A DNA stretch of 64,000 nucleotides from Geothrix sp. 21YS21S-2 (GTDB taxonomy: Bacteria > Acidobacteriota > Holophagae > Holophagales > Holophagaceae), in assembly GCF_030846775.1 (NCBI RefSeq), contig NZ_CP132910.1, forward strand, positions 2,700,001 to 2,764,000, given 5' to 3'. Shown piece after piece: positions 825 to 59,062 of this stretch; the first letter of the stretch is position 1, and each line of letters opens with the position of its first letter. Under the pieces are notes generated by a model. It was not told where the DNA came from. It ran no database searches and saw only the letters and a program-made list of their open reading frames with translations. The translations under genes and the position numbers were made by a program.

Positions 825-3446
825 TTAATTGAGCTTGAAATTGACGCCGAAGGAGACCCGCACGGCCCGGTTCTCCTTCCCGATGGTGGGCGGGAAGAAC
901 ACCCACCGCCAGGCGAAGGCCTCCGCGGCCGCCCGGAATTCCGGGGCGCCGCCCTCGCTCTCCACGTGGAGGGGGATGCCGTCCCTGCCCACCGCCACCC
1001 GCAGCCTCACGGCGGCCTCGGCCTTGGCGGCCAGCGCCTCCGGCGGATAGGTGGGTTTCTCGGGGCGGTAGGCCACCTGGAGATCGGCCATGGGCACCTC
1101 GGGGAGCGCCTCCAGGCCGCCCTTCGGGAAGGGCGCGGCCTTGGCGCGGGGATCCTGGGCGGCGGGATCCCAGGTGCGGGTCACCTGGAGCGTGAAGGGG
1201 CCCGCCTCGATGGCGTCCTGGGACAGGCCGGGTCCGTCGTTGGCCTTCCGGCTGGGCAGGACCTCCACGTCGACGATGACGGCGTGGCCGGACGTATTGT
1301 TGAAGGCGCGCTCGTTGAAGCCGCGCGGTCCGTCCTGGCGCACCACCTCCAGGCGGTACTTGGACCGGGGGATCTCGCCGGCGGCCTTCACGTCCAGGCC
1401 GAGGCGGGCGTTGGCCGGGATCTCGAAGGAGAAGAACCGGTTCCGGCTGGCGTTGCCCTGGATGGTGGCCATGGCCGCGTGGGCCGGAATGAACACGCCA
1501 TTGAACCGGAAGGGGGAGTGCGGTGCCGGGGAGTCCAGGCTGGAGGGGGCGGCCTGGTCCAGGCGGAAGTCCACGTCCAGCTCCACCCGCACGGCCTTGT
1601 ACTTCATCCGGGCCGGCGGCGAGGAAAAGCAGAAGCGCCAGCCGTAGTCCTCGGCGGCGGCACGGAGCCCGGCCGGCCCATCCTTGGCCGTCACCTGGAC
1701 CGGCCAGCCCTCCCGGTCCACCACCAGTTCCAGCCGGACCAGGCCCTCGATCCGGGCGGCCTGGGCCGCGGGGGGGTAGTCCAGGCTGCGCGGGTGGTAC
1801 CACACCTTCATGGAACCGAGCTTGACCAGGGGCAGCGCCTTGATGGCCGCCTGGGTGAAGGGCACCGCCTTCGCCCTGGGATCCTGGGCGGCCGGATCCC
1901 AACTCCGCTCCACCTCCAGGATGAAGGGCCCCCCGGGCATGGCCATGAAAGCGCTATGGAACCTCTCGATCAGGGGCGGACATACGCGCACGTCCACGTA
2001 CTGGGTCTGGTCGGAAGTGTTCTCGAGCCAGCGGAGCTCGTTCTCCTCCGGGTGGCCCTTCCGTCCCACCCGAAGCTTGTAGCCCCTGAAGGGTTCGTCG
2101 CCATCCGGCCGGATCGTGAGCGTGAGCCGGGAGTGGGGCGGGATCTCGAATGACGCCGCCCCCCCCCCGGAGATGTCGGCGACGCCCCTGAAGAACCTGG
2201 CAGAATCGAAGGCCGGGATCATCCCATGGAACCGCCAGATTCTCGGGGCCTGGCCAAGGGCGGCCCCGGGGCGGGGAGCGGGGGCCGGGACGGGACCATC
2301 GGGCACCGGGAGGGGGGCGGGGAGGGGGGTCGCGGAGGACCGCGCCGCGGCGTCGGGCGGGTCCTCCAGCGGCAGCTGGTAGAGGGCGGCACGGGTGGGC
2401 TCGGCCTGGGCGGGGGCCGCGGGCGCGGCCTGGAGCGAAACCACGGCGGGCTTCAGGGGCGGTTCCGGAGGCGCGGCCACGAGGGGCGTCCAGTGGACGC
2501 CGTTGGCGAGGACGGTGACGGCGGCCAGGGCGAGGAGCCCGGGGCGGGTGAGGGTCTGGGTGGGAAGCATCGGAATGAGCAGGCGTTTGATGCGGTGCAT
2601 GAGGGAGCCTCCGTGGCCCGAGGGGGCCAGCTGGGTGGGTGGGCCGTGGCGCAGGGCCTCCAGGTCCGCCAGGGCCTGGGCGAAGCGCAGGCCCCCGCCG
2701 CAGTGGGCCGCGGCGGCGTCGTCGCAGCAGTGCTCCCGCTCCGCGCGGATCTCGCGGGAGAGCCACCACACGGCGGGGTGGTAGAAGAAGACGACCTCCG
2801 CGACGTTCTGGAGGAAGTTCACGAGGAAATCCCGGCGCGTGATGTGGGCGAGTTCGTGGGCGAGGACGGCCTCCAGGGAGGCCTCCGGCAGGGCCAGGAG
2901 GGCGGCGGCGGGCACGAGGATGACGGCCCGCCAGAAGCCCACCACCAGGGGCGAGTCCACGAGGTCGGAGACCACCAGCCGCACGGGGCGGGCGTGACGG
3001 AAGGCCTCGCGGAGGCGCTCCAGGCTGGCCTCGAGGGCGGCGGGCGCGGGGCGGGCTCCTTGCAGGCAGGGCCCGTAGAGCCAAAGGAGACCCGCCCCCA
3101 GCCTCAGGGCCAGGGCACCGCTGCCGGCGGACCAGGCCAGGAGGATCCACGGCAGCCGCGCATGGAGCTGCTCCCGGAGATCCGGTGGCAGCACGGTGAC
3201 GACCCCGGAGAACGTCGCCGCCGGCTCGATGGCCAGGGCCTCCGGCCGCGCCGCGGCGACGGTGGCCAGGAAGGCCAGGACCATGGCCAGGAGGCCCAGG
3301 CAGCCCACCAGGTACCGGGTCTGGGGACGGTGCGCGAAGCGCAGCGCCAGGAAGGCGGCGCACCCGATGAGGGCGCCCTCCCAGAGGAAGTGCACCAGCC
3401 CCCAGGCGAAGGCCTGGAGCCACGGGGCGAGGGCGGCGGTGCTCAT
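825..3446 (-). CDS. M56-family (BlaR1-like) membrane peptidase with two TonB-like modules
   Basis: An 873-residue protein read from the ATG at 3446, which overlaps the stop of the upstream BlaI-type gene as ATGA. The N-terminal part has several membrane segments and the zinc-protease motif HELAH at about 197-201, followed by REHCCDD, which is typical of peptidase M56/BlaR1. After a Pro/Ala-rich linker the protein holds two similar modules of about 220 residues (about 404-630 and 645-873). Each ends in a TonB C-terminal-like domain (YPP..A, then R..V.V....F.L). BlaR1-type proteases sense a signal across the membrane and cleave their BlaI partner. Here the usual penicillin-binding sensor is replaced by the duplicated modules, so the signal is unknown. 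Confidence 0.85.
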   Translation of the reverse strand: MSTAALAPWLQAFAWGLVHFLWEGALIGCAAFLALRFAHRPQTRYLVGCLGLLAMVLAFLATVAAARPEALAIEPAATFSGVVTVLPPDLREQLHARLPWILLAWSAGSGALALRLGAGLLWLYGPCLQGARPAPAALEASLERLREAFRHARPVRLVVSDLVDSPLVVGFWRAVILVPAAALLALPEASLEAVLAHELAHITRRDFLVNFLQNVAEVVFFYHPAVWWLSREIRAEREHCCDDAAAAHCGGGLRFAQALADLEALRHGPPTQLAPSGHGGSLMHRIKRLLIPMLPTQTLTRPGLLALAAVTVLANGVHWTPLVAAPPEPPLKPAVVSLQAAPAAPAQAEPTRAALYQLPLEDPPDAAARSSATPLPAPLPVPDGPVPAPAPRPGAALGQAPRIWRFHGMIPAFDSARFFRGVADISGGGAASFEIPPHSRLTLTIRPDGDEPFRGYKLRVGRKGHPEENELRWLENTSDQTQYVDVRVCPPLIERFHSAFMAMPGGPFILEVERSWDPAAQDPRAKAVPFTQAAIKALPLVKLGSMKVWYHPRSLDYPPAAQAARIEGLVRLELVVDREGWPVQVTAKDGPAGLRAAAEDYGWRFCFSSPPARMKYKAVRVELDVDFRLDQAAPSSLDSPAPHSPFRFNGVFIPAHAAMATIQGNASRNRFFSFEIPANARLGLDVKAAGEIPRSKYRLEVVRQDGPRGFNERAFNNTSGHAVIVDVEVLPSRKANDGPGLSQDAIEAGPFTLQVTRTWDPAAQDPRAKAAPFPKGGLEALPEVPMADLQVAYRPEKPTYPPEALAAKAEAAVRLRVAVGRDGIPLHVESEGGAPEFRAAAEAFAWRWVFFPPTIGKENRAVRVSFGVNFKLN

Positions 3447-3835
3447 GGCGCCTCCGCCTTCCGGCGGGCCTTGTCCAGCATCCGCTGGATCTCCTCCCAC
3501 TCCTCCGGAGACGCCGCCTGGGACTCCAGGGCCCGGACCATGAGGTCCTTGGCGCTGCCTCCGAAGGCCCGGCGGACCAGGTCCTGCACCAGGAAGGCCT
3601 GGGTGGGCTCCTGGTCCCGGGCCGCGCGGTAGACGTGGGTCATGGCCGAGGCGTCCCTCGTGACCAGGCCCTTGTCCGCCATGATCTGCATGAGCTTCAG
3701 GACGGTGGTGTAGCCCAGGTCGCGTTCCCGGGCCAGTTCCGTGTGCACGTCCCGCACGGTGGAGGGGCCCCGGCGCCAGAGGACGCTCAGGATGGCGAGC
3801 TCGCCGTCCGAGGGACGGATGGGATCGGGGCTCAT
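3443..3835 (-). CDS. BlaI/MecI-type transcriptional repressor
   Basis: 130 residues from the ATG at 3835, which has a GGAG ribosome-binding site; an in-frame ATG 17 codons further upstream would place the start inside the promoter and is unlikely. The N-terminus is the winged helix of the penicillinase-repressor family (DGELAILSVLWRRG, then GYTTVLKLMQIMADKGLV). Members dimerise on short inverted repeats and are inactivated by cleavage by the M56 partner, which is encoded immediately downstream with a 4-base overlap. The inverted repeat between its own -35 and -10 boxes supports autoregulation of the pair. Confidence 0.9.
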   Translation of the reverse strand: MSPDPIRPSDGELAILSVLWRRGPSTVRDVHTELARERDLGYTTVLKLMQIMADKGLVTRDASAMTHVYRAARDQEPTQAFLVQDLVRRAFGGSAKDLMVRALESQAASPEEWEEIQRMLDKARRKAEAP

Positions 3836-3858
3836 GGAGACTCCGGGGTGATGAAGCA

Positions 3859-3886
3859 AAGATACGAACCTATTCGTAGGTGTCAA
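3859..3886 (-). promoter_or_regulatory. Promoter with embedded inverted-repeat operator for the blaI-like/M56 pair
   Basis: On the minus strand TTGACA (3886-3881) is followed by a 16-base spacer and TATCTT (3864-3859). An inverted repeat, TACGAA-CCTA-TTCGTA in plus-strand reading at 3863-3878, lies in the spacer and touches the -10 box. That is where a repressor would exclude RNA polymerase. BlaI-family operators are similar-sized inverted repeats starting with TAC and ending with GTA. Confidence 0.65.
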
Positions 3887-3942: not shown

Positions 3943-3981
3943 TTCCTCTGCCCGCCTCACGGCGCGGCAGCGGAGGCAGCC

Positions 3982-6900
3982 ATGTCCATCGACGTTCGGG
4001 GCACGATCCGGGGGCGGCTCGCCGCCATGGTGGCGATCCCGGTGGCCTTCCTCGCCATCTACTGCGTGGCCGATGCCCTGGGGAGCCTGAAGGCCTACCG
4101 GGAGTCCCGGGCGGCCATGGCCCTCGCGGAGGTGTGCGTCCGGGTGGGCGACGTGGTCCACGAGCTCCAGAAGGAACGCGGCGCCACGGCCGGATATCTG
4201 AGCAGCGGCGGGAAGCGGTTCGTGGACGAGAAGGCGGCGGCGCGAAAGCAGGCGGACCTGCGCATCTCGGACCTCCGGGGGACCCTTTCGGGCCTGGACC
4301 TGGGGGCCCAGGCGCCGGGCGTCCTTGCCAAGGTGCGCAGGGCGGACGGGAGCCTGGACAAGCTGACAGGCTGGCGGCAGTCGGCGGACGCCTTGGCGGT
4401 GGCACCGCCCCAACACGTGGCCAATTATTCAGGACTCATCGGCGGCCTTCTGGAGGTGGTGGAGGAGATCCCCCGGAACACGCGGGATCTCGGGCTCTTC
4501 TCGACCTCCCAGGCCTACCTCCAGGTGATGCGCGTGAAGGAGCAGTCGGGCATCGAGCGGGCCACACTCAACACGGCCTTCACCGCCGACCGCTTCCAGG
4601 AGGGCCTGTTCCGGCGCTTCTGCTCCCTGGTGGGCCAGCAGGAGGCCGGCGTCCAGACCTTCCGGAGCCTGGCGGCCCCCGCCCAGGCGGCCTTCCTCGA
4701 CAGGGAGCTGAAGGGGCCCTTCGCCGCGGGCGTGGACGGGTTCCGGGCGGTGGCCTTCGACCGGGGCGGGCAGGGCGGCTTCGGGGCGGATTCGGCCCAG
4801 TGGTTCCGGCTCGCCACGGCCCGCATCGACGCCCTGAAGGCGGTGGAGGCCCGCATGGGCGCCGATCTGCGGGCCATGGTGCAGGCCAGCCTGGACCATG
4901 CCCGGCGCGGCATGGCGCGTGCGGCCCTGGTGATGGCGCTGGCGCTGGGCCTGTCCGTGTTCCTGGCGGTGACCCTGGCCAGGGGGATCATCCGGCCCCT
5001 CCAGGTGTGCTCGGCCTCCCTGGGGCGCATCTCCGCCGGGGACATCCCCGGCCGCATCACGGAAACCTACTATGGCGAGTTCAACGAGATCCGGGACAAC
5101 CTCAACCGCTGCACCGGGGCCGTCAACGCGCTGGTGGCCGACGCGGGCATGCTGAGCCGGGCCGGGGTGGAGGGCAAGCTGGCCACCCGCGCCGACGCGT
5201 CCAAGCACCAGGGGGACTTCCGCAGGATCGTCCAGGGCGTCAACGACACCCTCGACGCCGTCATCGGGCCGCTCAACGCCGCCGCCGACCACGTGGACCG
5301 CATCTCCAAGGGCGATCTTCCCCCGCGCATCACCGCCGACTACCCCGGCGACTTCAACGGGCTGAAGAACAACCTCAACCGGTGCATCGACGCCGTGGGG
5401 GCCCTGGTGGCCGACGCGGGCATGCTGAGCCGCGCGGCGGTGGAGGGCCAGCTGGCCACCCGCGCCGACGCGTCCCGGCACCAGGGCGATTTCCGGCGCA
5501 TCGTCCAGGGCGTCAACGACACCCTCGACGCCGTCATCGGGCCGCTCAGCGAGGCCGCAGGGCACGTGGACCGCATCTCCAAGGGCGACCTCCCCCCGCG
5601 CATCACCGCCGACTACCGGGGCGACTTCAACGAGCTGAAGAACAACCTCAACCAGTGCATCGACGCCGTGGGCGCCCTGGTGGCCGACGCGGGGATGCTG
5701 AGCCGGGCGGCGGTGGAGGGCCAGCTGGCCACCCGCGCCGACGCCTCCAGGCACCAGGGCGATTTCCGGCGCATCGTCCAGGGCGTCAACGACACCCTCG
5801 ACGCGGTCATCGGCCCGCTCCGGATGGCCGCGGACCACGTGGACCGGATCTCCAGGGGCGACCTCCCACCGAGGATCGAAGCCGAGTACCGGGGGGACTT
5901 CAACGAGATCAAGGCCAGCCTCAACCGGTGCATCGGCGCCGTGGGCGCCCTGGTGGCCGACGCGGCCATGCTGAGCGGCGCAGCGGTGGAGGGCCGGCTG
6001 GCCACCCGCGCCGACGCCTCCCGTCATCAGGGGGACTTCCGCCGCATCGTGCAGGGCGTCAACGACACCCTGGACGCCGTCATCGGCCCCCTCCGCGTGG
6101 CCGCGGACCACGTGGACCGCATCTCCAAGGGGGACGTCCCGGGCCGGATCACCGGGACCTACTACGGCGACTTCAACGAGATCAAGAACAGCCTCAACCG
6201 GTGCATCGACGCCGTGGGGGCCCTGGTGGCCGACGCGGCCATGCTGAGCCGCGCGGCGGTGGAGGGCCAATTGGCCACCCGCGCCGACGCCTCCCGGCAC
6301 CAGGGGGACTTCCGGCGCATCGTGCAGGGCGTCAACGACACCCTGGACGCCGTCATCGGCCCCCTCAACGTGGCCGCGGGCTACGTGGACCGCCTCTCCA
6401 AGGGCGACCTCCCCCCGCGCATCACCGCCGACTACCGCGGCGACTTCAACGAGATCAAGAACAACCTCAACCAGTGCATCGGGGCCGTGGAGGCCCTGGT
6501 GGCCGATGCGGCCATGCTGAGCCGGGCGGCGGTGGAGGGCCAGCTGGCCACCCGCGCCGACGCCTCCAGGCACCAGGGCGACTACCGCAGGGTCGTCCAG
6601 GGCGTCAACGACACGCTCGACGCCGTCATCGGGCCGCTCACCGTGGCCGCGGACTGCGTGGACCGCATCTCCCGGGGCGACATCCCTCCGCGCATCACCG
6701 CCGACTACCGCGGCGACTTCAACACCATCAAGACGAACCTCAACCGGTGCATCGACGCCCTGGACGGCATGCTGCGCCAGACCCGGGCCGTCATCGGCTC
6801 GGCCCGCGAGGGGGACCTGGGCGCCCGGGCCGGCACGGACGGCGCCATGGGCGCCTACGGCGAGCTGCTGGCGGGGTTCAACGCCACCCTCGACGCCGTG

Positions 6901-8262
6901 GTCACCCCCATCCGGGAGGTGATCCGGGTGGTGGGGGCCCTGGAGCGGGGCGACCTCACCCAACGCATCGCGGGGGACTACCGGGGCGACTTCAAGGAGC
7001 TGGGCGACGCCATGAACAACTCCGTGGCGGGCCTGGGGCGGACCCTGGCGGGGATCCGCTCGGCCTCCAACACCCTGGCCGCGGCGTCGGAGGAGCTCTC
7101 CTCCAGCGTCGCGGTCATCGCCGGCACCGCGGAGCGCCTCCTGAAGCAGGCCGAGCAGGCTTCGACCGGCACCCAGGGCGCCAACGCCAAGGTGCGGGAC
7201 CTGGCCGCGGGCGTGGGCGAGACCAACGCCCAGTGCGCCACCGTGGCGGCGGAGTCCGAGCAGGTCAACGGGCGCCTCCAGACCGCGGGGGCCGCGGTGG
7301 AGGAGATGAGCGTGAGCCTGGACATGGTGGGCGGATCCATGGAGCAGATGTCGTCCAGCATGGCCGTGATCTCCGATTCCACCGGGGCCATGACGGGGGC
7401 CGTGGACTCGGTGGCCGCGGCCATCCGGGAGATGGACGCCAGCCTGCGGGAGGTGTCCCGAAGCGCCGGCAAGGCCGCCACGGTGGCCGTCGGGGCCTCC
7501 CGCACCGCCGGGGACACGGCGCGGATCATGGACCACCTGGGCCGCAGCGCCCAGGAGGTGGGCAAGGTGGTGGACCTCATCAAGGGCATCGCCGCCCAGA
7601 CCAACCTCCTGGCCCTCAACGCCACCATCGAGGCCGCCAGCGCGGGCGATGCCGGCAAGGGCTTCGCCGTGGTGGCCGGCGAGGTGAAGGAGCTCGCCAA
7701 GCAGACCGCGTCGGCCACCGAGGAGATCCGCTCCCGCGTGGCCGAGATCCAGGAGAGCACGGGCCAGGCCGTTGCGGCCATCGGGGGGATCGTGTCGGTG
7801 ATCGACGAGATCAACGCCATCTCCGCCGGCATCGCCGTCGAGGTTGAGGAGCAGACCCGCACCACGGGCGGGATCTCCACCAAAGTCGCCGAGGCCGCGC
7901 AGAACGCCGGGGAGGTCTCCCGAAACGTCAAGGTCGCCGCCGCCGGGACCCACACCGTCAGCCGCAACCTGCGGGAGATCGCCACCGGGGGCCAGGAGGT
8001 GAGCCGCAACGTCCAGGACGCCGTCCTGGGGGTGCGGACCATCTCCCGGAACATGGCGGACCTGGCGGACCGCACCACGGGCATGGCCGCCACCAGCGGG
8101 CGCGCCGCGGACGACGTGGACGGGGTGGCGCGGAGCATCGCCATCGTCACCACCGCCACCATGGAGACCGCCCGGGGCGTGGGGGAGATCCGCAAGGCCT
8201 CCACGGACCTGGCCCGGCTGGCCGAAACCCTCCGGGCCTCGGTGGAGGCCTTCCGGCTCTGA
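3982..8262 (+). CDS. Giant methyl-accepting chemotaxis protein with NIT sensor and poly-HAMP array
   Basis: 1426 residues from the ATG at 3982 (GGAGG upstream); most chemoreceptors have 500-650. After a first membrane segment (about 9-30) comes an extracytoplasmic NIT-type domain beginning [16 protein letters not shown] second membrane segment (about 310-335) leads to a first HAMP domain. Then follow six near-identical 91-residue repeats and a seventh divergent one. Each is two HAMP-like units, giving about fifteen HAMP-like units in series. The C-terminal signalling hairpin contains [16 protein letters not shown] and [12 protein letters not shown], which contact CheA/CheW. NIT domains are associated with nitrate/nitrite sensing, but the ligand here is unproven. 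Unlike the other receptors in the window, it has no C-terminal aromatic pentapeptide. It is far from the che cluster, so it probably uses CheA/CheW in trans. Confidence 0.93.
5131..7041 (+). repeat. Tandem 273-bp repeats encoding the poly-HAMP array
   Basis: Repeat units start at 5131, 5404, 5677, 5950, 6223 and 6496, exactly 273 bases apart. A divergent seventh unit spans about 6769-7041. Each unit encodes 91 residues starting LVADA.MLS and containing [13 protein letters not shown] and RGDFNEIK-like segments. A cysteine codon recurs at 5110, 5383, 5656, 5929, 6202, 6475 and 6748 with the same period. Nucleotide similarity between the first six units is very high, so they probably expanded recently by unequal recombination. 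Confidence 0.95.
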
Positions 8263-8378
8263 AGTCCGCCCTTGCGCGCCAACGGATTACGCCGAGGTGA
8301 AGGGGCCGGCCCGGACCGACATCCAGAAGAATTACGGGAGCTGCGGTTATCCTGGAGGTACGTCATCCCGGGATCACC

Positions 8379-9095
8379 ATGCACCGCTTCGCCCTTCTCT
8401 GCCTCCTCCTCGCCCTGCCGGTCCCGGCGGCCCCGACCCTGGAAGGCACGGTGCAGCCCTACCGCAAGGTGGAGGTGAGCGCCCACGTCTCCAGCCACGT
8501 CGTGGACCTGAAGGCGGCCGAGGGGGACACCGTCAAGGCGGGGCAGCCCCTGGCCCAGCTGTATGCGCGGCTGGAGGAGCTGGAGATGAAGCGGTCCAAG
8601 GCCCTGCTGGACCGCCGCGAATACGAGGCCAAGGGGGCCCGGAGCCTGTTCGACAACCGGGTGATCCCGGAGGCCAGGGCCATGGAGTCCCGCATCGACC
8701 TGGAGCTGGCGCGGCTCAATTTCGAGACCGCCGCCGAGCAGGTCCGCCTGCGCACCATCCTCGCCCCCATCGACGGCCTCGTGGTCGAGCGCACCCGCGA
8801 GCTGGGCGAGGCCGTGGGCGCCTCCCAGGTGGTGTTCCGCATCCTGGACCTGAGCAAGGCCACCATCCTCTGCACCGCCAGGCCCGACAAGGTCGCCCGC
8901 CTGGTTCCCGGCCAGAAACTCACCGTCCACGTGTCCATCCCGGAGGGCATGACCGCCCTGCAGGCCGAGGTGGTCCTGGTCTCCCCCTGCCCGGACGCCT
9001 CGGGCCTCATGCGGCTCAAGCTCCTGGTGCGCGATCCCGCGCCGGGCCTGCGCGCCGGCCTGAAGGCCCTGGTCGACCTGCCCGAAGCCCCCTGA
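8379..9095 (+). CDS. Small HlyD/RND-type membrane-fusion (adaptor) protein
   Basis: 238 residues with a clear signal peptide (MHRFALLCLLLALPVPAAP). It has a split biotinyl/lipoyl-like domain (EVSAHVSSHVVDLKAAEGDTVKAGQPLAQL, then LAPIDGLVVERTRELGEAVGA), a short helical hairpin at about 65-115, and a C-terminal beta-barrel. These features place it with the periplasmic adaptors of efflux pumps. Such adaptors normally work with an inner-membrane pump and TolC, but no pump gene lies beside it. It is an orphan, about 100 residues shorter than typical adaptors. A cupin gene follows after 10 bases and is probably co-transcribed. Confidence 0.82.
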   Translation: MHRFALLCLLLALPVPAAPTLEGTVQPYRKVEVSAHVSSHVVDLKAAEGDTVKAGQPLAQLYARLEELEMKRSKALLDRREYEAKGARSLFDNRVIPEARAMESRIDLELARLNFETAAEQVRLRTILAPIDGLVVERTRELGEAVGASQVVFRILDLSKATILCTARPDKVARLVPGQKLTVHVSIPEGMTALQAEVVLVSPCPDASGLMRLKLLVRDPAPGLRAGLKALVDLPEAP

Positions 9096-47944: not shown

Positions 47945-49174
47945 TCAGAACGCTTGCGGCTCGTCGAAGATCAGGATGTTGTCGTCCTGGGCACGGGCTT
48001 CCGGGTCCGCCAGGGACAGGGCCCTGGGCAGGACGACGCGGAAGAGGCTGCCCCGGCCGGGTTCGCTGTCGACGTGGAACCGTCCGTCCAGGATGTCCAC
48101 CAGGGCCCGCACCACGACCAGGCCCAGGCCCTGGCCCCGGGCCACCTTGAAGGATCCCCCCTTGTTCCGGAAGGGCTCGAAGATCGCCTTCAGGCCCTCC
48201 CCGGACATGCCCGGACCGCCGTCCTGGACTTCCAGGACCAGGCCGGCCTCCGTCACCTCGGCGCGCACCTCGAGGGCGCCCCCCCCGTGCTGCACGGCGT
48301 TGGAGACGAGGTTGGCGAGGATGTGGTGGAGCATGTCCGCGTCGGTGTGCCAGTCCGCCTCCAGGCCCTGGAGGCTGATGGCCACGCCGAGCCCCCTTTC
48401 CCGGGCCTTGGGCTCGAAGGAGGCCGCCACGTCCCGCACCACGGAGCCCACGTCCACCCTCGAGATGAAGGGGCTGGCCTCGCCGGCCTCCACTTCCGCG
48501 GCGGCGAAGACGTTGCGGATCTGGCAGTCCAGGTGGAACGCCTCGTCCTTGACCAGGAGCGCCAGCTCCCGGGCCTTGCCGGGGGGCAGGGCCGGGTCGG
48601 CGATGCTGTCGGAAAGGGCCATGATGCTGCCGAGGGGGTTGTTGATCTCGTTGCGCATGAGGGCCAGGAAGCGGGTCTTGACCTCCTCGGAGTGCTGGAG
48701 CTTCTCGTTGAGGGCCAGGAGGTTCCGGTTCATGGCGCTGGCGTCGTGGAGGGCCTTGCCCAGGCTGTCGCGGCTCTCCTTGAGCTCCTGCGTCCTCCGG
48801 CGGATGGCGAGATGGGTCTTCACCCGGACTTCCAGCTCCTCGTACTGGACGGGCTTGGCCAGGCAGTCCACGGCGCCGGCGTGGAACGCCCGCACCCGCT
48901 GGGTGGTGCCCAGGAGGCCGCTCATGACGATCACGGTGGGAGGCCCGTCCCCGGACTGGGCCAGGAGTTCCCGGCAGACGTCGAAGCCGTTCATGCCGGG
49001 CATGGACAGGTCCAGGAGGACCAGGCCGGGTCTTTCCCGGAGGGCCACCTCCAGGCCCAGGGCGCCGTCGGGGGCGTCCAGCACCCGAAGGCCGATGCCT
49101 CCCAGGAAGGCCCGCAGGGCGACCCGCAGGCCCGCGTCGTCGTCGATGACCAGGATGGTATCCGTGGGCTCCAT
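47945..49174 (-). CDS. Response regulator fused to a kinase-like domain without the phospho-accepting histidine
   Basis: 409 residues. An N-terminal receiver has the acidic pocket IDDD, the phospho-accepting D55 in LVLLDLSMPGMNG and the lysine in LAKPVQ. A coiled coil leads to a dimerisation helix whose H-box reads FLALMRNEINNPLGSI. Asn175 stands where active kinases have histidine (SHEIRNPL). The ATPase domain is intact: NLVSNAVQHGGG, QDGGPGMSGEG, IFEPFRNKGG, GQGLGLVVV. It therefore may bind ATP but cannot autophosphorylate in the usual way. Possible roles are a phosphatase, an output module controlled by the receiver, or a pseudokinase scaffold. The gene sits between cheB and cheD in the chemotaxis operon. 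Confidence 0.88.
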   Translation of the reverse strand: MEPTDTILVIDDDAGLRVALRAFLGGIGLRVLDAPDGALGLEVALRERPGLVLLDLSMPGMNGFDVCRELLAQSGDGPPTVIVMSGLLGTTQRVRAFHAGAVDCLAKPVQYEELEVRVKTHLAIRRRTQELKESRDSLGKALHDASAMNRNLLALNEKLQHSEEVKTRFLALMRNEINNPLGSIMALSDSIADPALPPGKARELALLVKDEAFHLDCQIRNVFAAAEVEAGEASPFISRVDVGSVVRDVAASFEPKARERGLGVAISLQGLEADWHTDADMLHHILANLVSNAVQHGGGALEVRAEVTEAGLVLEVQDGGPGMSGEGLKAIFEPFRNKGGSFKVARGQGLGLVVVRALVDILDGRFHVDSEPGRGSLFRVVLPRALSLADPEARAQDDNILIFDEPQAF

Positions 49175-49189
49175 GGCTTGCTCCGGGCT

Positions 49190-50239
49190 TCAGCGGGCGA
49201 TCAGTTCGGGAATCATGGACAGGGGGACGACCTTGTCGGCGGCGCCCAGCTTGATGGCCTCCTTGGGCATGCCGAAGACCACGCAGCTCTCCTCGTCCTG
49301 GGCCAGGGTGTGGGCCCCGGCCTGCTTCATCTCCAGGAGGCCCCGGGCGCCGTCGTCGCCCATGCCGGTCATGATGACCCCCAGGGCGTTCCTCCCCGCG
49401 TACTTGGCCACGGACCGGAAGAGCACGTCCACGGAGGGGCAGTGCCGGTTCACGGGGGGCGCGCTGACCACCTCGGCCACGTACTGGGCGCCGCTCCGGC
49501 GCACCACGAGGTGCTTGCCGCCGGGGGCGATGAGGGCCCGCCCGGCCAGGACGCGGTCGCCGGTCTTCGCCTCCCGCACCTCGATCTCGCAGATGCTGTT
49601 GAGCCGGGCCGCGAAGGCGGCCGTGAACTTCTCGGGCATGTGCTGGACCACCACGATGCCCGGGCAGGTGCGGGGCAGGGAGGCCAGGACGAACTCCAGC
49701 GCCTGGGTCCCCCCGGTGGAGGTCCCGATGGCGGTGAACCGGTCGGTGGTGACCACCATGGCCTCGCCTCCCGGCGGAAGCACGATGTCCGCGTTGGCCT
49801 TGGGCGGGACGGGCTTGAGCACCCGGCTGACCCGGGCGCCGGCGGCGGCCCGCACCGCCATGACCAGATCGCCGGAGCTGTCCTCCAGGAAGTTCTTAAC
49901 GCCGAGCGTGGGCTTGGTGAAGATCGTGAAGGCGCCGGCGGCCAGGGCCTGCATGGTGGTCTCGGCGCCCTTGGCCGTCAGGGACGAGCAGATGATGACG
50001 GGCGTGGGGCGCTCGGCCATGATCTTGCGCAGGAAGGTGATGCCGTCCATGCGCGGCATCTCCACGTCCAGCAGGATGACGTCCGGCCACTCCTTCTTCA
50101 TCTTCTCCATGGCGAACAGCGGGTCCATGGCCTGGCCGATGACCTTGATCCCGCGGTCCTTCCCGAGGATCTCCGAGAGGGCCTGCCGCACCACCGCGGA
50201 ATCGTCGATGATCAGGACTTTGATGGGTTCAGGGGACAC
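49190..50239 (-). CDS. cheB: Chemotaxis methylesterase/deamidase CheB
   Basis: 349 residues. The receiver domain carries D58 in [13 protein letters not shown]. The methylesterase domain has the full triad: S174 in GTSTGG, H200 in [10 protein letters not shown] and D296 in MTGMGDDGA, with the same spacings as E. coli CheB. It removes methyl groups from chemoreceptors when phosphorylated by CheA, giving adaptation. Its start overlaps the end of cheR by 11 bases. Confidence 0.98.
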
Positions 50240-51074
50240 GATACACCGTCGGGCGAAGGGGGGTGAGGTTGTGATCGAGCCCGGTCAGGCTCTCGGAGTG
50301 GCCGACGATGAGCAGGCCCCCCGGCTTGACCTGCGCGGCCACGGCGTCCACCACGAGCTTCTTCTGGGGCGGCTCGAAGTAGATGAGGACGTTGCGCAGG
50401 AAGGCGACGTCGAAGGGGCCCAGCCTTGGCAGGGGCTGGATGAGGTTGGCCTGGGTGAAGGTCACCCGCTGTCTTAGATTCCGGTTGACGAGAAACATTC
50501 CCTCCTGTTTTCCGGTGCCCTTGAGGCAGCTGGCGTGGAGCAGGTCCTTGGGGATGCCGGCGCTGCGCTCGATGGGGTAGAGGCCGGTGCGGGCCCGCTC
50601 CAGGACGCGCGTGCTGATGTCGGTGCCCAGCACCTGCCAGTCGGCGGTGCCCAGGAGGTCGGACAGCACCATGGCGATGGTGTAGGCCTCCTCCCCGCTC
50701 GAGCTCGCCGCGCTCCAGACCTTGAACGGGAAGGGCACGGGGCGCAGGGCGCGGATGTGGTCGGCCAGGATGCGGAAGTGCTCGGGCTCGCGGAAGAAGC
50801 TGGTCTCGTTGGTGGTCATCAGGTCGATGGCCGTCTGGAGCTCGGCCTTCTCGGAGGGGTCCTGGAGGATCTTGAAGTAGTCCCCGAAGGAGGCCAGGCC
50901 GCGGTGCCGGAGGCGGCTGCCGAGGCGGCCCACCACGAGGGCCTTCTTCTGGTCCGAAAGGTTGATGCCGGTAAGCTGCTTGACCAGGGTCCGGATGCGG
51001 CCGAACTCCTGGTCCGAGATCGCTGGAGAACCCGCAGCCAGCGGAAGCCCGGAAGGAGGAGGGCGCAGGGTCAC
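50229..51074 (-). CDS. cheR: Chemoreceptor methyltransferase CheR
   Basis: 281 residues. The all-helical N-terminal domain is followed by the SAM-dependent methyltransferase core with [14 protein letters not shown], the SAM-binding loop [18 protein letters not shown] and [14 protein letters not shown] beta-subdomain typical of pentapeptide-dependent CheR is located between the methyltransferase strands. It methylates glutamates on chemoreceptors. Three receptors in this window end in the type of aromatic pentapeptide that tethers CheR. The ATG overlaps the stop of cheW by 4 bases. Confidence 0.97.
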
Positions 51075-51613
51075 GAGGCTTCCGTCCTGGAACCGCCCGA
51101 GGCCAGGGCCGCCATCTCGTCGATGGAGAGGACGTGGTTGACGTCCAGCAGGATGACGAACTTCCCGCCCACCTTGCCCACCCCGGCCAGGAAGTCGCTC
51201 CTCAGGGTGCTGCCGAAGGACGGGGCCGGCTCGATGTCGGAGGCGCCGATCTCCAGGACCTCGCTCACGTGGTCCACGATGACCCCCAGCTCCACGATGT
51301 CCCCCTCCTGCTCCACCTCGAGGATCACCACGCAGGTGCGCCGCGCCACTTCCGTGGCGGGCCGGCCGAACCGGACCGAGAGGTCGATCACCGGCACCAC
51401 CGCCCCGCGCAGGTTGATCACGCCCCGGATGAAGTCCGGCATGAGGGGCACCTCGGTGAGGGCCCCGTACTGGATCACCTCCTTGATGGACCGGATGTCC
51501 ATGGCGAAGTTCTCGCCGCCCAGCACGAAGGCCAGGAACTGGTCCTTCTTCTCCACCTGGGCCCGCTCGACGCCGCCCCGGGTGCGTTTGTTGACCTGCA
51601 TCGCTTCGGCCAT
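51071..51613 (-). CDS. cheW: Chemotaxis coupling protein CheW
   Basis: 180 residues from the ATG at 51613, chosen over one 5 codons upstream because AAGGAG lies 7 bases before it. A single CheW (SH3-like) domain is present: FLAFVLGGENFAMDIRSIKEVI, PLMPDFIRGVINLRGAVVPVIDL and LGVIVDHVSEVLEI. It links chemoreceptors to CheA. The gene lies 16 bases downstream of a chemoreceptor gene and overlaps cheR. Confidence 0.96.
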   Translation of the reverse strand: MAEAMQVNKRTRGGVERAQVEKKDQFLAFVLGGENFAMDIRSIKEVIQYGALTEVPLMPDFIRGVINLRGAVVPVIDLSVRFGRPATEVARRTCVVILEVEQEGDIVELGVIVDHVSEVLEIGASDIEPAPSFGSTLRSDFLAGVGKVGGKFVILLDVNHVLSIDEMAALASGGSRTEAS

Positions 51614-51629
51614 GGCCGTCTCCTTCAAG

Positions 51630-53258
51630 TCAGAACCGCGAGAATTCTTGTTCGTCCAAGGCCGGGGCCAGGGCCCGGGGTTTCCGGCCCTGGACGGGGG
51701 GCCGCCCCGGAGCCTTGGCCCGGGCCTGGGGGCGGGCCCCCGCCAGCCGGAAGAAGGCCACGGTGCTCTGCATCTCCTGCGCCTGGGCGTTCACCTCCTC
51801 GGAGGTGGAGGCCAGTTCCTCGGAGGCCGCGGCGTTCTGGGCCACGGACTGGCTGATCTGTCCGATGGCATCGTTGATCTGGCCCACGCCGGAGTTCTGC
51901 TCCGCGGAGGCCGCGGCGATCTCCATGACCAGGTCCGAGGTCTTCTGGATGGAGGGCACGATGGTGTCCAGGAGCTTGCCGGCGCGTTCCGCCAGCTCCA
52001 CGCTGCCCGAGGCGAGGCCGCTGATCTCCTCGGCCGCGATCTGGCTCCTTTCGGCCAGCTTCCGGACCTCCGCCGCCACCACCGCGAAGCCCTTCCCGTG
52101 CTCCCCGGCCCGGCCCGCCTCGATGGCCGCGTTCAGGGCCAGGAGGTTCGTCTGGTAGGCGATGTCGTCGATGATGGCGATCTTCTGGGCGATCTGCTTC
52201 ATGGCGCCCACGGTATCCTTCACCGCCTGGCCCCCCTCCCGGGTGTCCTGGGCCGTGTGGGTCGCCAGGTCCCCGGTCACCTTGGCGTTCTCGTTGTTCT
52301 GGGCGATTGAGGCGCTCATCTCCTCCATGGAGGCGCTGGTCTCCTCCACGCTCGCCGCCTGTTCGCTGGCGCCCTGGCTCAGGGACTGGGCCGTGGCGCT
52401 GAGCTGCTCCGAGGCGCCCACCAGCATGTCCGAGGACTCCTGCACCTGGCCGACGACGTCCGACAGCTTTTCCACCATGACCTTGATGGAGGCCATCATG
52501 CTCTCCGTATCGCCCCGTTCCGTCACGACCTCCAGGGCCAGGTTGCCCTCGGCCACCTGGCGCACGATGGACGCGGCGTAGGCGGGCTCGCCCCCGACCT
52601 GGCGCTTGATCAGCCGCGTCACGAGGAGCCCCAGGCCCACGGCCAGGAGCATGCCCACGCCCATGGCCACGGTCATCTGGACCGAGGCGGAGTGGGCGGT
52701 CTGGGCGTTGGCGGCGGCGATGCCCTCGGCCTCCTCGACGTTCTCCCGGATCATCTTCTCGATGACGCCGTTGAGCTCGCTGGTGATCTTGCCGACGTTC
52801 GGGCTGTAGGAGACCGCCACCGAATCGGCGATCTTGTTCTCGTTCCGGAACCGGATCATGGGCTGGGCCACTTCCCGGTCGTAGGTGACGGTCAGTTCCC
52901 TGAGCCGGGCCAGGTTGGCCTTCTCGTCCGCCGAACTGGCCTGCTTGGCGTAGGCGGTCATGGCCTCCTGCATGAGCTTCCAGTTCTTCTCGTAGGCGGC
53001 CAGGACCTGCGCCAGCTTCTCCTTGTCGGGGGCCGCGATGGTCTTGCTCAGGGAGTTGCGCACCAGCTGGAAGTTCCCGTTGATGGCATCCAGGTTCTTC
53101 ATGGGCGCGGTGGCGTTCTCGAACATGAACCGGTCGCTTTCGGCCAGCTTGCCCAGGTTGCTGATGCCGATCGCTCCCACGCCGCCGGCGATGAGGGCGA
53201 CCAGAATGAAGGAAAGGATGAGTTGCGTCGCGAGACGGAGTTGCTTGAACCAGTTCAT
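51630..53258 (-). CDS. Methyl-accepting chemotaxis protein in the che operon
   Basis: 542 residues. Two membrane segments (about 9-32 and 195-215) flank a four-helix-bundle-type sensor domain of about 160 residues. HAMP ([28 protein letters not shown]) and a long signalling domain follow, with the tip [44 protein letters not shown] flexible Pro/Arg/Ala tail of about 35 residues ends in EFSRF, matching the x-aromatic-x-x-aromatic CheR-tethering pentapeptide. It lies between cheA and cheW, 23 bases after cheA. Its signalling domain is nearly identical to those of the receptors at 57361 and 59145. The ligand is unknown. Confidence 0.95.
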
Positions 53259-53281
53259 GGGGCTCCTGATGGTGGAAATGA

Positions 53282-55432
53282 CTAGTTGGAAATCACAGGC
53301 TGGGAGGAGGATCGGCCGCGGCGGGTCGCGAGCTGCACGAGCTGGGGGACGTCGAGGATCAAGGCCACTTCGCCGGTGCCGAGGATGGTGGACCCCCCGA
53401 CGCCCTTGAGGTTGCGGAAGAGCTCCCCGAGCGGCTTGATGACCGTCTGGAATTCCCCGAGGAGCCTGTCCACCACGATGCCGGCGCGCGTCTCCCCGTA
53501 CTGGATGACCACCACCCGCTCCTTGGCGGGCCGGGGCCCCGGCACGCTGAAGACCTCCCGCAGGCGCAGGAAGGGCAGCACCTCGCCCCGCAGGTTGATG
53601 AGGTGGTTCTCCTCGGACTCCAGGAAGGGGCCCAGGTCCAGGCACTCGATGACGGTGTCCAGCGGGATGACGTAGCAGGTGGATTCCACCTCCACCCGGA
53701 AGCCGTCGATGATGGCGAGCGTCAGGGGGAGCCGGATGCGCATGGTGGTGCCCGAGCCCTCGTAGCTCTCGATCTCCACCGTCCCCCGCAGCTCGTCGAT
53801 GTTCCGGCGCACCACGTCCATGCCGACGCCCCGGCCCGAGAGGTTGCTCACGGCGGCGGCGGTGGAGAACCCCGGCTCGAAGATGAGGGCGTGGACCTCG
53901 GCGTCGGACAGGTCCGCCCCGGCGGGCACCAGGCCCCGCTCCACCGCCTTGGCCAGGATCCGCGCGCGGTCCAGGCCGCCGCCGTCGTCGGCCACCTCGA
54001 TGACGATGCTGCCGGATTCATGGAAGGCGTTGAGCGAAAGGGAGCCCGTGGCCGGCTTGCCCCGGGCCAGGCGCACGTCGGCGGACTCGATGCCGTGGTC
54101 GATGGAGTTGCGCACGATGTGCATGAGCGGGTCGGCGATCTTCTCCACGATGGTCTTGTCCAGCTCGGTGTCGGCGCCCTGGATCTCCAGCTCGATCTCC
54201 TTGCCCAGCTCCCGGCTCACGTCCCGCACGATGCGCCGGAACCGGCTGAAGGTCTCCCCGATCTGCACCATGCGAAGGCTGAGCGCGTTGTCCCGGATCT
54301 CCTCCACCAGCTTGTTGAACGTGGCGGTGGCCTCCAGCAGGCGGGCCTCCTTGGAGTGGCTGGCCAGGGCCTGGGCGCTGGCCCCGGCGATGACCAGCTC
54401 GCCCACCAGGTTCACCAGCTTGTCCAGCTTGTCGGCGGCGACCTTCACCACCTTCATCTCGTTGGCCAGCTTGTCGTGGAAGCGCTTCTGCTTCTCCAGG
54501 GCCGCGACGACCACGGGAGGAGGCACGGACTGGTCCTCCACGAGGATCGTCCCGATCATCCGCTGGGAGTCCTCGGCCTTCTGGGTGGCGAGGGCCGACT
54601 CCAGGTCGTGGGGCGTGATGCAGCCCCCGGCCACCAGGATCTCGCCGAGGTAGTGCTCCTCCTCGGGCAGGGCCTGGATGAGGGACAGGTACTCCTCCAC
54701 CTTGGAGTGGGGCGGGATCATCCGGATCCGGCTGTCGTCCTGGATGAACTCGAACACGCCCTCCAGCGTCTGCCGGTCCGCGTCCGTCTCCAGGTCCATC
54801 TCCAGGCCCAGGTAGCAGAGCTCCGGGTCGAAGGCCTCCCCTGCGGGGAGCCTCTCCAGGAGGGAGTGCAGGCTGACCATGCGGCCCAGGGTGCGCAGGT
54901 AGCGCACGAAGGACAGGGGGTCCATGCCGTTCTGGAGCACGGTGGGCGAGAAGCGCACGGAGATGTGCCAGTGGTCCCCTCCGCCCTCGCGGCGGGGGGC
55001 CACCTCCGGGCGCACCGCCTCGGCCACCGTCGCCACGCCGTTCTCGAGCCAGGGCACCAGGGCCGCCATCAGGCGCTCGCCCTCCGCGGCCACTTCCGGG
55101 GGTTCGGTCGCGTTCTCCCGCACCGTGGTGGCCAGGAGGCGCACCAGGTGGTCGTGGCACTCCAGGAACAGCCCCACCAGTTCCGGGGTCAGCGGGGTCC
55201 GCCCGCCGCGCACCCGGTCCATGACGCTTTCCACCGTGTGGGCGAAGCGCACGATGGGGTCCAGGCCGAACAGGCCCGCCGAACCCTTGATGGTGTGCAC
55301 GGCGCGGAAGATGGCGTTGATGGACTCGGAGGCGTCGTCCTGGTCCTCCACGGTGAGGAGCGCCTCCTCCATGGAGGCCAGCAGCTCACGGCATTCGATG
55401 ATGAAGGTCTGTTTGACCTGTTCCATGTCCAT
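53282..55432 (-). CDS. cheA: Chemotaxis histidine kinase CheA with a GspE-N-like insert
   Basis: 716 residues. The P1 domain carries the phospho-accepting H46 in [15 protein letters not shown]2-like region at about 155-235 is followed at 261-316 by an insert resembling the GspE/MshE N-terminal helical repeat ([24 protein letters not shown], then [21 protein letters not shown]). P3 dimerisation, the P4 ATPase ([31 protein letters not shown]) and a CheW-like P5 domain complete the protein. It phosphorylates CheY and CheB in response to chemoreceptors. A second in-frame ATG two codons later could also be the start. Confidence 0.97.
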
Positions 55433-55439
55433 GGGTGCC

Positions 55440-55751
55440 TCAGGCGGTGGGGGCGATGAGCAGGGTGTCCCCGAAGGCGGCGGCCAGGTTGAGCTGGTCG
55501 AGGACCTCCAGGACGGCGGGGCTGTGGCGGATGAAGGGCAGGACCCCGCCCCTGGCGCGGGCCTCGCGCTTGAGCCAGAGCAGCACCTGGGCGCCGGCGG
55601 TGTCCAGCTCCTCGATGCCCGAGAGGTCCACTTCGAGGGCCGGGTCCATGGTCAGCTCCTCCCCGAGGCGCTGGCGCGCCTCGGCGGCGTGGTAGATGGT
55701 GAGCTCGCCCGCGACGAGGAGGGTGTGCTGGGTGCGTTCGAAGGAGATCAT
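55440..55751 (-). CDS. STAS-domain protein
   Basis: 103 residues forming one STAS (anti-sigma-antagonist-like) domain: LLVAGELTIYHAAEARQRLGEEL, then EVDLSGIEELDTAGAQVLLWLK, where a serine or threonine is expected after the aspartate and Thr is present. Stand-alone STAS proteins often occur in chemotaxis operons between cheY and cheA, but their role there is unclear. It lies 7 bases before cheA and 8 bases after cheY. Confidence 0.88.
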   Translation of the reverse strand: MISFERTQHTLLVAGELTIYHAAEARQRLGEELTMDPALEVDLSGIEELDTAGAQVLLWLKREARARGGVLPFIRHSPAVLEVLDQLNLAAAFGDTLLIAPTA

Positions 55752-55759
55752 GGCCGGCC

Positions 55760-56128
55760 TCAGGGAAGAATCAGCTTGGAGACGGCCACGAGCAGCTGCT
55801 CGGGCTTGAAGGGCTTGACAACCCAGGCCCGGGCGCCCGCGGCCTGGCCCTCGCGCTTCTTGTCCTCCCCGGCCTCGGTGGTGAGCATGATCACCGGGGT
55901 GAACTTGTAGGCCGGATGGACCCGGATGGACTTGAGGAAGGTGATGCCGTCCATGTTGGGCATGTTCACGTCGCAGATCATCAGGTGGACCTTCTGCCCG
56001 GTGAGCTTGGCCAGCGCGTCCTGCCCGTCGCAGGCCTCGATGACGTCGTAGCCGGCGCTGGCCAGGGCGATGGCCACCACCTGCCGGAGGCTCACGGAAT
56101 CGTCGATGATCATGATGGTTTTTGCCAT
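55760..56128 (-). CDS. cheY: CheY-like chemotaxis response regulator
   Basis: 122 residues from the ATG at 56128; an in-frame GTG 3 codons upstream is an alternative start. It is a single receiver domain with the acidic pair in IIDDSVSLRQ, the phospho-accepting D53 in LMICDVNMPNMDG, and the lysine in AWVVKPFKPEQL. With no output domain it is expected to act on the flagellar switch or another motor. No cheZ or cheC phosphatase gene is visible, so dephosphorylation must be spontaneous or encoded elsewhere. Confidence 0.93.
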   Translation of the reverse strand: MAKTIMIIDDSVSLRQVVAIALASAGYDVIEACDGQDALAKLTGQKVHLMICDVNMPNMDGITFLKSIRVHPAYKFTPVIMLTTEAGEDKKREGQAAGARAWVVKPFKPEQLLVAVSKLILP

Positions 56129-56137
56129 GGGGTCCAC

Positions 56138-57265
56138 TCAGAAGAAGGTGATGTCGGAATCCGTGTCATGGGAGGTCTGCTCCCCACGGTGGATGGCGAG
56201 CTGCTCGGCGGTCGTGTAGGTCGTCTCCAGCTCGGCGAGCCACTGGTCCACCTCCAGGCCGGAGGGGTGGTGCTCGAGGCGGTGGCTGAACTTCTCCATG
56301 TCCGCCACGACGCTCTGGAGGATCTGCCCGACCCGGTCCTGGAACTGCAGGTGGACCAGGGTGCTGGAGATCTCCTGGCCCAGGTGGATCCCCACGCCCT
56401 CGAAGCGCTGGGCGGAGTCGGACAGGAGGGTGACGCCCTGCTGGATGTCCTCCACCACCTTCTTGATGGTGGCGTCGGCCTTCCGGACCATCTCGGCGTC
56501 GGTTGCCGCGAAGGACTGGGTGGCGGCGAGGGTGTCCAGGAGCGACTTGTTCACCCAGGCCACCTTGGAGGTGATGGCGTTGCCCGTGGTGCCCGAGCGC
56601 ATGCTCAGCTTGCGCACCTCGTCGGCCACCACGGCGAAGCCCCGCCCCAGCTCCCGGGCGTGGGCGGCCTCGATGGCCGCGTTCAGGGCCAGGAGGTTGG
56701 TCTGGTTGGCGATGGCGGCCACCTCTTCCGACATGGTCCGCAGCTCTTCGGTGATGGCGGCCAGGTCCTGGATCTTCTCCAGCACCTCGTTCCGGACCCT
56801 GGCGCCCTTCTCCAGGTCCTGCACCACCCCGTGCAGGGCGGCGGAGCCGCCCTCGATGGCGGCCTGCAGGTTCCGGTTCGACTCCAGTCCCGCGGAATGG
56901 ACCGCCTCCTTGAGGTTGCGCTGCATGGCCGAAAAGCGTCCGGTGAGCGCCGTGACGGCCTCCTCCATCTCCGACCGGGCCTGGGAGGTCTGGCCGGCCC
57001 AGAGGGGGACCACGGCGCCCGCGACCTGCTCGATCCCGGGACGGGCCTGGGGGGTGGCCTGTTCGGGCGCCGACTCGGGCACGGGGGGGGCGGGGGCGGG
57101 GCGCCGCCCCAGGAGGACGCACCCCAGGGCCGCGACGCCCAGGAGCGCGCCCATCCGGGAGAATCCGGAGGCCAGAAGGGGCGCCAGGAAGACCGCGGCA
57201 GGGACGCCGTAGGCGGCCAGATGCCGCGTGAGCGGAGGTTTTGTTCCAGTCTCTGGGGATTCCAA
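56138..57265 (-). CDS. Short methyl-accepting chemotaxis protein without a periplasmic sensor
   Basis: 375 residues. Two closely spaced hydrophobic segments near the start (about 18-55) leave no room for a periplasmic domain. A Pro-rich linker follows, then an MCP signalling region with the tip [40 protein letters not shown]. The C-terminus has LVHLQFQDRVGQILQSV and ends TDSDITFF, a pattern shared by a class of short MCP-like proteins located at the head of che operons. It lacks the aromatic pentapeptide. It may sense membrane state or cytoplasmic signals. It precedes cheY by 9 bases and is probably the first gene of the core operon. Confidence 0.88.
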   Translation of the reverse strand: MESPETGTKPPLTRHLAAYGVPAAVFLAPLLASGFSRMGALLGVAALGCVLLGRRPAPAPPVPESAPEQATPQARPGIEQVAGAVVPLWAGQTSQARSEMEEAVTALTGRFSAMQRNLKEAVHSAGLESNRNLQAAIEGGSAALHGVVQDLEKGARVRNEVLEKIQDLAAITEELRTMSEEVAAIANQTNLLALNAAIEAAHARELGRGFAVVADEVRKLSMRSGTTGNAITSKVAWVNKSLLDTLAATQSFAATDAEMVRKADATIKKVVEDIQQGVTLLSDSAQRFEGVGIHLGQEISSTLVHLQFQDRVGQILQSVVADMEKFSHRLEHHPSGLEVDQWLAELETTYTTAEQLAIHRGEQTSHDTDSDITFF

Positions 57266-57360
57266 GGGGTCCGGTCTCCTGAACGGGGCGCAGGGTCGCG
57301 CGGGGAAGGTCGAATCATACAGGCGAAGGAAAGGATTCCATCACCCCGGCGGGTCAGCCA

Positions 57361-58980
57361 TCAAAATCGTGTGAACTCACCCGCTTCTTCCTCCCGCTGG
57401 GGGGCGGCCCGCCGGGGCGTGACCGGGGAACGACCGGACGTGCGATTCCGGACGGGCGCGGCGGCCTTGGCGAGCCGGAAGAAGTCCATGGTCCCCTGGA
57501 GTTCGAGCGCCTGGGCGTTGACCTCCTCCGAGGTGGAGGCCAGTTCCTCCGAGGCGGCCGCGCTGTGGGCGACGGCCTGGCTGATCTGCCCGATGGCGGC
57601 GTTGATCTGGCCCACCCCTGAATTCTGCTCCGCGGAGGCCGCGGCAATCTCCATGACCAGGTCCGACGTCTTCTGGATGGAGGGGACGATGGTGTCGAGG
57701 AGCTTGCCAGCGCGTTCCGCCAGGTCAACGCTGCCCGAGGCGAGCCCGCTGATCTCCTCGGCGGCCACCTGGCTCCGCTCGGCCAGCTTGCGCACTTCGG
57801 CCGCCACCACCGCGAAGCCCTTGCCGTGTTCCCCGGCCCGGCCCGCCTCGATGGCCGCGTTCAGGGCCAGGAGGTTGGTCTGGTAGGCGATGTCGTCGAT
57901 GATGGCGATCTTCTGGGCGATCTGCTTCATGGCGCCCACGGTCTCCTTCACCGCCTGGCCCCCTTCCACCGTCTCCCTGGCCGTCCTGGTGGCGATATCC
58001 CCGGTGACCTTGGCGTTCTCGTTGTTCTGGGCGATGGAGGCGCTCATCTGCTCCACGGAGGCGCTGGTCTCCTCGACGCTGGCTGCCTGTTCGCTTGCAC
58101 CCTGGCTCAGGGACTGGGCCGTGGAACTGAGCTGCTCCGAGGCCCCCACCAGCGACCGGGAGGCTTCCTGCACCTGCCCGACCACGCTGGCGAGCTTTTC
58201 AACCATGTTCTTGATGGAGGCCATCATGCTCGTCGTGTCGCCCGGCATGAGGTCCACCTGGACCGCCAGGTCCCCGGCCGCCACCTTCTGGGCGATGAGG
58301 GCGGCTTCCGTGGGCTCGCCGCCCACCTGGCGCTTGATCACCCGGGTCACCAGGAGTCCCAGCCCCATGGCCAGGGCGAACCCCGCGGCCATCGCGATGA
58401 TGAGATTGCGACGCAGCGCCTCGTAGGTGGCCGCTCCGGCCTTGTCGGCCTCCTGCGCCACATGGCTGTTGTCGTCGAGGATCTTCACGAGGAGGCCCCG
58501 GAGCTCGAGGTACTTGGGCCGGGCCGTCTGGACCGTCAGTTTCTTCGCCTCCTCCGATTTCTTGGCGTCCAGGAGGGTGGAGACGCTGTTGATGGTTTCC
58601 ACATAACTGGCCCATTTGGTGTCGATTTCCGCCCAGAGCGCCTTTTCGGTGTCGCTCATGTTGGTGGACCGCTCCTTCTTGGACCAATCCAGGAATTCCT
58701 TCTTGGCGCTTTCGATGTTGGCGAGTTCCACGGCCCGCCCCTTCTCGTCCGGGGCGATGACCATGTAGATCACCCGCAGCTGGAGGGCGGCCACCCGCAC
58801 GATGCAGTTGGCCATGTAGTTCTGGCCCTGCACGTTGTCCGTGTAGACCTGGTGCATGAGTCCGGCGACGGTCGAGGTCCCCCTCAACCCGAACAGGCCG
58901 ACCCCGATCGAAAGGATGGAAACGATCAGGAAGGCGAGCAACAGCCGTGCTGAAAGACGGAGGTTGTTCAGGCTTGACAT
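57361..58980 (-). CDS. Methyl-accepting chemotaxis protein
   Basis: 539 residues from an ATG with AAAGGAG upstream. Two membrane segments (about 11-33 and 190-212) enclose a helical sensor domain of about 155 residues ([31 protein letters not shown]). It is of the four-helix-bundle MCP type that binds small metabolites. HAMP and a signalling domain ([42 protein letters not shown]) follow, then a flexible tail ending EFTRF, a CheR-tethering-type pentapeptide. A sigma-28-like promoter lies 56-82 bases upstream. The signalling domain is nearly the same as in the receptor at 51630, while the sensor domains differ. Confidence 0.95.
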
Positions 58981-59035
58981 GCGGAACTCCTTTCGGTGCC
59001 GTGGATTGGGACAAGACGAACAAGGCTTCGATGAG

Positions 59036-59062
59036 TTATCGGTATTCCCGGTGGAGAGCTTA
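59036..59062 (-). promoter_or_regulatory. Sigma-28-like promoter of the 57361-58980 chemoreceptor
   Basis: On the minus strand TAAG (59062-59059), 15 bases, then ACCGATAA (59043-59036) matches the sigma-28 (FliA) consensus TAAA-N15-GCCGATAA at 10 of 12 positions. The predicted start lies about 50 bases before the ATG. This class of promoter typically drives late flagellar and chemotaxis genes. Confidence 0.6.

Follow-up and report, generated by a model that had tools for sequence, protein, structure and literature searches.

Chemoreceptors of the Aer2 type, described as Aer2/McpB in Pseudomonas aeruginosa and as Aer2 of the F7 system in Vibrio and Shewanella, carry chains of alternating HAMP domains between the sensor and the signalling hairpin. 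Alternating HAMP conformers have been proposed as the path of the signal in Aer2 (PMC3570549), and tall poly-HAMP arrays exist for this receptor (PMC7184735). Tip height is ~25 nm in ordinary receptors and 35 nm in the tall arrays of Methylomicrobium (PMC7184735). Receptors of unlike length segregate into independent arrays (PMC6628036); the evidence for this length-based sorting so far comes from few model species with fixed length classes. Here we describe a chemoreceptor with a far longer HAMP chain, encoded in a 64,000-nucleotide stretch of the genome of Geothrix sp. 21YS21S-2 (hereafter the window), and its relation to a second receptor encoded elsewhere in the same genome.

Architecture of the receptor and its repeat array

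The receptor is encoded on the forward strand at positions 3982-8262 of the window (1426 aa), with a GGAGG ribosome-binding site read in the sequence at 3972-3976, 5 nt upstream of the ATG. A periplasmic NIT sensor domain (4150-4869, aa 57-296) is bounded by two transmembrane helices, which were read as hydrophobic stretches at approximately 4018-4080 and, ahead of the first HAMP domain, at approximately 4912-4977. These are followed by fifteen HAMP domains and a long MCP signalling hairpin with a conserved tip (7033-8259, delimited by the MCPsignal match and alignment; tip start aligned at 7597). A Pfam scan of the protein gave 189 bits for NIT (PF08376), a total of 750 bits for HAMP_2 in 8 stretches, 103 bits for HAMP and 102.6 bits, above the cut-off, for MCPsignal (PF00015). 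Adjoining the gene, at 825-3886 on the reverse strand, we read a pair consisting of a repressor resembling BlaI and a membrane peptidase resembling M56/BlaR1.

The NIT domain matched that of NasR (PDB 4akk, E 2e-25), and its QxxR (aa 63-66) and GxxR (aa 190-193) motifs lined up with the nitrate-binding motifs of that protein. Residues Q63, R66, G190 and R193 were invariant across the three orthologues described below. NasR has the two arginines that bind nitrate, and glutamine in place of one glycine (PMC8199190). Since the motifs line up with those of NasR, the ligand of the receptor is probably nitrate or nitrite. The PAS (haem) domain that characterises F7/Aer2 receptors was not found in the Pfam scan at E values up to 10.

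The HAMP region begins with a canonical, membrane-proximal domain (HAMP1, 4981-5121; partial HAMP_2 match at 4987-5130, and alignments). It continues with six di-HAMP units of 91 aa (5122-6759) and a divergent seventh (6760-7032) that shares 30% amino acid identity with unit 1. Each unit consists of one divergent and one canonical HAMP domain, giving a total of 1 + 2x7 = 15. It is a poly-HAMP chain of the Aer2 type, with well over three concatenated HAMP domains, divergent and canonical in alternation. A profile of the units matched PDB 9trk best (a histidine kinase-Gcn4p fusion, E 1.3e-17) and also 3vol (Aer2, E 1.5e-11); a phmmer search of PDB with the entire HAMP region found nothing. An AlphaFold2 model of HAMP1 and three units had a pLDDT of 43 and was excluded as evidence of fold. 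The HAMP_2 and profile matches bear out the original prediction of a poly-HAMP chemoreceptor, and the count agrees with the predicted fifteen or so HAMP-like units and divergent seventh repeat.

Tandem Repeats Finder detected the DNA array at 5074-6763 (period 273 bp, 6.2 copies, 87% matches, score 2433). The next best tandem array in the window scored only 72, which places this array far above chance. The absence of indels (0%) agrees with the predicted six units at an exact period of 273 bp. The prediction had also called the repeats near-identical and from this deduced a recent expansion. An expansion has occurred, but the units are only 76-92% identical at the DNA level. Synonymous divergence among them (dS 0.20-0.47) is comparable to that between this gene and its orthologue in a sister species (G068; 0.33 before the repeats and 0.23 behind them), so the expansion is about as old as the split between these species. 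Judged by these distances, it is species-old, which does not support a recent expansion. We consider it barely credible that the repeat number is an artefact of assembly. Draft genomes of relatives do often break within such arrays, but this genome is a single 5.25-Mb contig, and repeats that differ by 8-24%, with a longest exact internal repeat of 68 bp, are divergent enough to be resolved.

A rare tip class and its second member

The genome encodes ~30 MCPsignal proteins and three CheA proteins. Most of the receptors sort into three classes by tip sequence and arm length. The first has the tip NAAIEAAKAG and a C-terminal arm of 151-152 aa. The second main class, with arms of 171-181 aa, includes the receptors of the window's own che cluster. 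The third is rare and has only two members, the window receptor and a partner receptor at 169-173 kb of the same contig, with arms of 221 and 207 aa, respectively, counted from QTN. In an alignment of the signalling domains, the window receptor carries a two-heptad insert in the descending arm (7303-7344) that is missing in the partner, and a mirror insert of two heptads in the ascending arm (7924-7965).

The che cluster of the window (47945-60830, reverse strand) is complete and encodes a hybrid kinase/receiver, CheB, CheR, CheW, CheA and four MCPsignal proteins. Three of the last are membrane receptors (51.6-54.0, 57.4-59.1 and 59.1-60.8 kb), as expected from the three normal-length receptors that had been noted; the fourth, a shorter protein with no recognised sensor domain (56138-57340), had not been counted.

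The partner receptor has a four-helix-bundle sensor and is unlinked to the window receptor, 2.5 Mb away. Its gene adjoins those for CheW, CheA (at 175 kb), a STAS protein and a SpoIIE-type phosphatase that bears an anti-sigma-like ATPase domain, and a CheB gene lies ~8 kb from it. The rare signalling class was present in 11 of the 77 genomes of the family. All 11 also had a CheA of the partner type at 62% identity or more, a protein present in only 14 of the 77. Because most members of the class adjoin this type of CheA, the link between the two is strong, and from tip class and co-occurrence we infer that the orphan window receptor couples to the CheA at 175 kb. Since its tip and arm length differ from those of every other receptor but one, whose stalk matches, the window receptor probably occupies an array distinct from the others, with a dedicated CheA. 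The proposal that so long a stalk may not fit the array of the normal-length receptors thus gains support, indirectly, and can be extended to tip sequence, arm length and a single length-matched partner. The STAS and SpoIIE-type proteins beside the partner suggest a partner-switch output, as in the Shewanella che1 locus, which carries Aer2 together with CrsA and CrsR, a sigma-factor partner switch (PMC9855816).

Among 396 genomes of the phylum and 93 of the class, this signalling class was confined to Holophagaceae. Weaker matches in the phylum belonged to another class, with C-terminal arms mostly of ~151 aa, and those inspected mostly had PAS-like sensors. Separately, we observed a 1420-aa receptor with a GRAG tip and several weak HAMP_2 matches near another CheA (L115; G052:C1:2536000-2552000, 4720-8979), a candidate poly-HAMP receptor in a second signalling class.

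Unit number at two unlinked loci

Orthologues of the window receptor were found in two relatives of the same genus. The G068 orthologue (971 aa) is shorter by exactly 5 x 91 residues and the G066 orthologue (1063 aa) by approximately four units. The window-type repeat is present six times in Geothrix sp. 21YS21S-2 (G000), twice in G066, which is a single contig, and once in G068, a fragmented metagenome-assembled genome of 330 contigs. The anticipated variation in length was therefore seen at the level of species, in whole units of 91 aa. The junctions between the units of G066 (YPGDF..L at the first, YRGDFN.IK at the last) are the same as in the G000 gene. G068 has a chimeric junction, with a YPGDFNGLK head joined directly to the terminal-unit tail LDGMLRQ. 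The simplest reading of these junctions is that the ancestor had at least two units, some of which would have been lost in G068 by recombination between repeats, and on this reading the array both grows and shrinks.

These observations raise the possibility that this is an ordinary poly-HAMP receptor in which the number of repeats drifts neutrally. Whole-unit changes of four and five units show that recombination alters its length, and the G068 junction, in which the head of unit 2 meets the terminal-unit tail, is what such an exchange would leave behind. Any equality of length with another receptor would then be coincidental. We compared di-HAMP counts in all receptors of the rare tip class with a complete HAMP region. 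The window and partner receptors had 7 and 7 units in G000, 3 and 3 in G066, and 2 and 2 in G068. Tandem pairs with the same tip and differing sensors in two further genomes had 3 and 3 (G061) and 1 and 1 (G053). The numbers were thus equal in 5/5 same-tip pairs, over counts from 1 to 7, with only three of the pairs unlinked. An exact permutation over the five pairs gave a probability of 2/120 for this match, with the caveat that common descent may account for the match in the two tandem pairs. With the three unlinked pairs alone, the probability was 1/6 by permutation and 0.016 if counts were drawn from those observed. Equal counts are therefore suggestive of height matching, without amounting to proof. 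The small number of independent pairs leaves room for drift, but sister species have moved from 2/2 to 7/7, or the reverse, and are still matched.

The distances along the receptors add to this comparison. The total number of HAMP domains differed by one in each unlinked pair (15/16, 7/8 and 5/6 for window and partner receptor in G000, G066 and G068), as the partner has one additional HAMP domain near the membrane. Between the first divergent HAMP and the tip, the window and partner receptors spanned 787 and 773 aa in G000, 423 and 408 aa in G066, and 332 and 318 aa in G068. This offset of 14-15 aa was constant in all three unlinked pairs and corresponds to one of the two mirror-image 14-aa inserts that the window receptor carries in its arms. 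Two heptads span ~2.1 nm; a lone HAMP domain spans 3.5 nm (PMC6628036), and a concatenated one less. The two heptads added to each arm therefore roughly offset the one missing HAMP. That the mirror inserts compensate the sole constant difference in HAMP number also speaks against drift, which we regard as unlikely.

Gene conversion between the loci could likewise keep the counts equal with no selection on height. The window and partner units are indeed related (78.9% identical), but the window units are as near to the partner units of the sister species G068 (78.4%), and the longest exact stretch common to the two arrays is 42 bp. The units of the two receptors form separate groups with no copying between the loci seen, and one type of unit in the partner array (FVGGWNQLVSGVNDTITNIVNPL) is absent from the window array. 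We consider this explanation very improbable. In the partner array itself (L051; G000:C1:166000-174500, 4470-6166) we observed a 341-bp exact internal repeat and two identical 91-aa units; to judge from this identity, the truly recent duplication is in the partner's array.

No further length-matched pairs were found in the 396 phylum and 93 class genomes, because the signalling class is confined to Holophagaceae and drafts often break inside the arrays. Poly-HAMP receptors in drafts G135, G234, G252 and G097 mostly ended with the contig inside the repeats, and pairing them was not possible. Contig ends in G135, G252, G045, G047, G049, G042 and G039 indicate that many draft Acidobacteriota assemblies break inside poly-HAMP arrays, and long receptors of this kind are for this reason probably under-counted in databases. 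Among the tandem same-tip receptors, two without a Pfam sensor match (L104, 8998-11832; L105, 3574-5919) have a CxxCH-like motif at the N-terminus, by reading, possibly a periplasmic haem sensor. The other member of each pair resembles the receptors with a four-helix bundle.

A proposed tall array and its relation to known systems

With moderate confidence, we propose that the window receptor belongs to a dedicated tall array, shared with its same-tip partner, in which HAMP number is an evolvable, height-matched spacer. The periplasmic NIT domain would sense nitrate or nitrite, and the signal would descend the 15-HAMP stalk, through canonical and divergent conformers alternating as in Aer2, to the rare-tip hairpin. 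As receptors of unlike length segregate (PMC6628036), the window receptor would very likely be confined to an array with the sole other receptor of its tip class, apart from the ordinary arrays. Its output is probably gene regulation by partner switching, instead of or besides swimming. At 10.5 A for each heptad pair (PMC6628036) and, by our own estimate, ~2.4-2.7 nm for each concatenated HAMP, the tip would lie ~65-75 nm from the membrane; at ~70 nm, such an array would exceed the height of the membrane chemoreceptor arrays in the literature cited here.

Unequal recombination would alter the number of di-HAMP units, while the two receptors would be held to equal height, so that HAMP number would act as a spacer matched across the array. 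More tentatively, and with doubt and belief nearly in balance, HAMP number could be an evolvable ruler: unlinked genes of the same array would change di-HAMP number in step and trade a HAMP domain against two heptads per arm, keeping the tips coplanar at ~70 nm. Stalk length that varies in 91-aa units is seemingly kept equal at two unlinked loci over at least two changes. The sample of matched pairs is small, and height and co-assembly are deduced from sequence. If upheld in more genomes, the pattern would be evolutionary evidence of selection on array height, and would provide a natural series of 5 to 16 HAMP domains for examining the reach of a conformational signal through stacked HAMPs.

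Among known systems, F7/Aer2 is closest, with alternating HAMP chains and an array that is distinct from the main one and exceeds it in height, to which the array proposed here can be likened. However, the window receptor has a NIT sensor, with no PAS or haem domain found, and 15 HAMP domains as opposed to 2 to 5 in Aer2. Its arms are longer than those of Aer2, which is of the 36H class, its tip is of a different class, and it has a partner whose HAMP number is matched to its own. Group III (Nik1-type) fungal histidine kinases also carry tandem HAMP repeats, of ~90 aa, and PDB 9trk, the best match of our unit profile, has tandem HAMPs and would appear to belong to this group; there the output is a histidine kinase and here a chemoreceptor hairpin. 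NasR of Klebsiella oxytoca, which binds nitrate, shares the NIT domain and its QxxR and GxxR motifs with the window receptor, but is a soluble antiterminator, whereas the NIT domain described here is periplasmic and drives a chemoreceptor. Finally, FrzCD of Myxococcus xanthus has a di-HAMP adjoining the signalling hairpin (PMC12077210), as in the window receptor, but is cytoplasmic and DNA-bound and contains a single di-HAMP.
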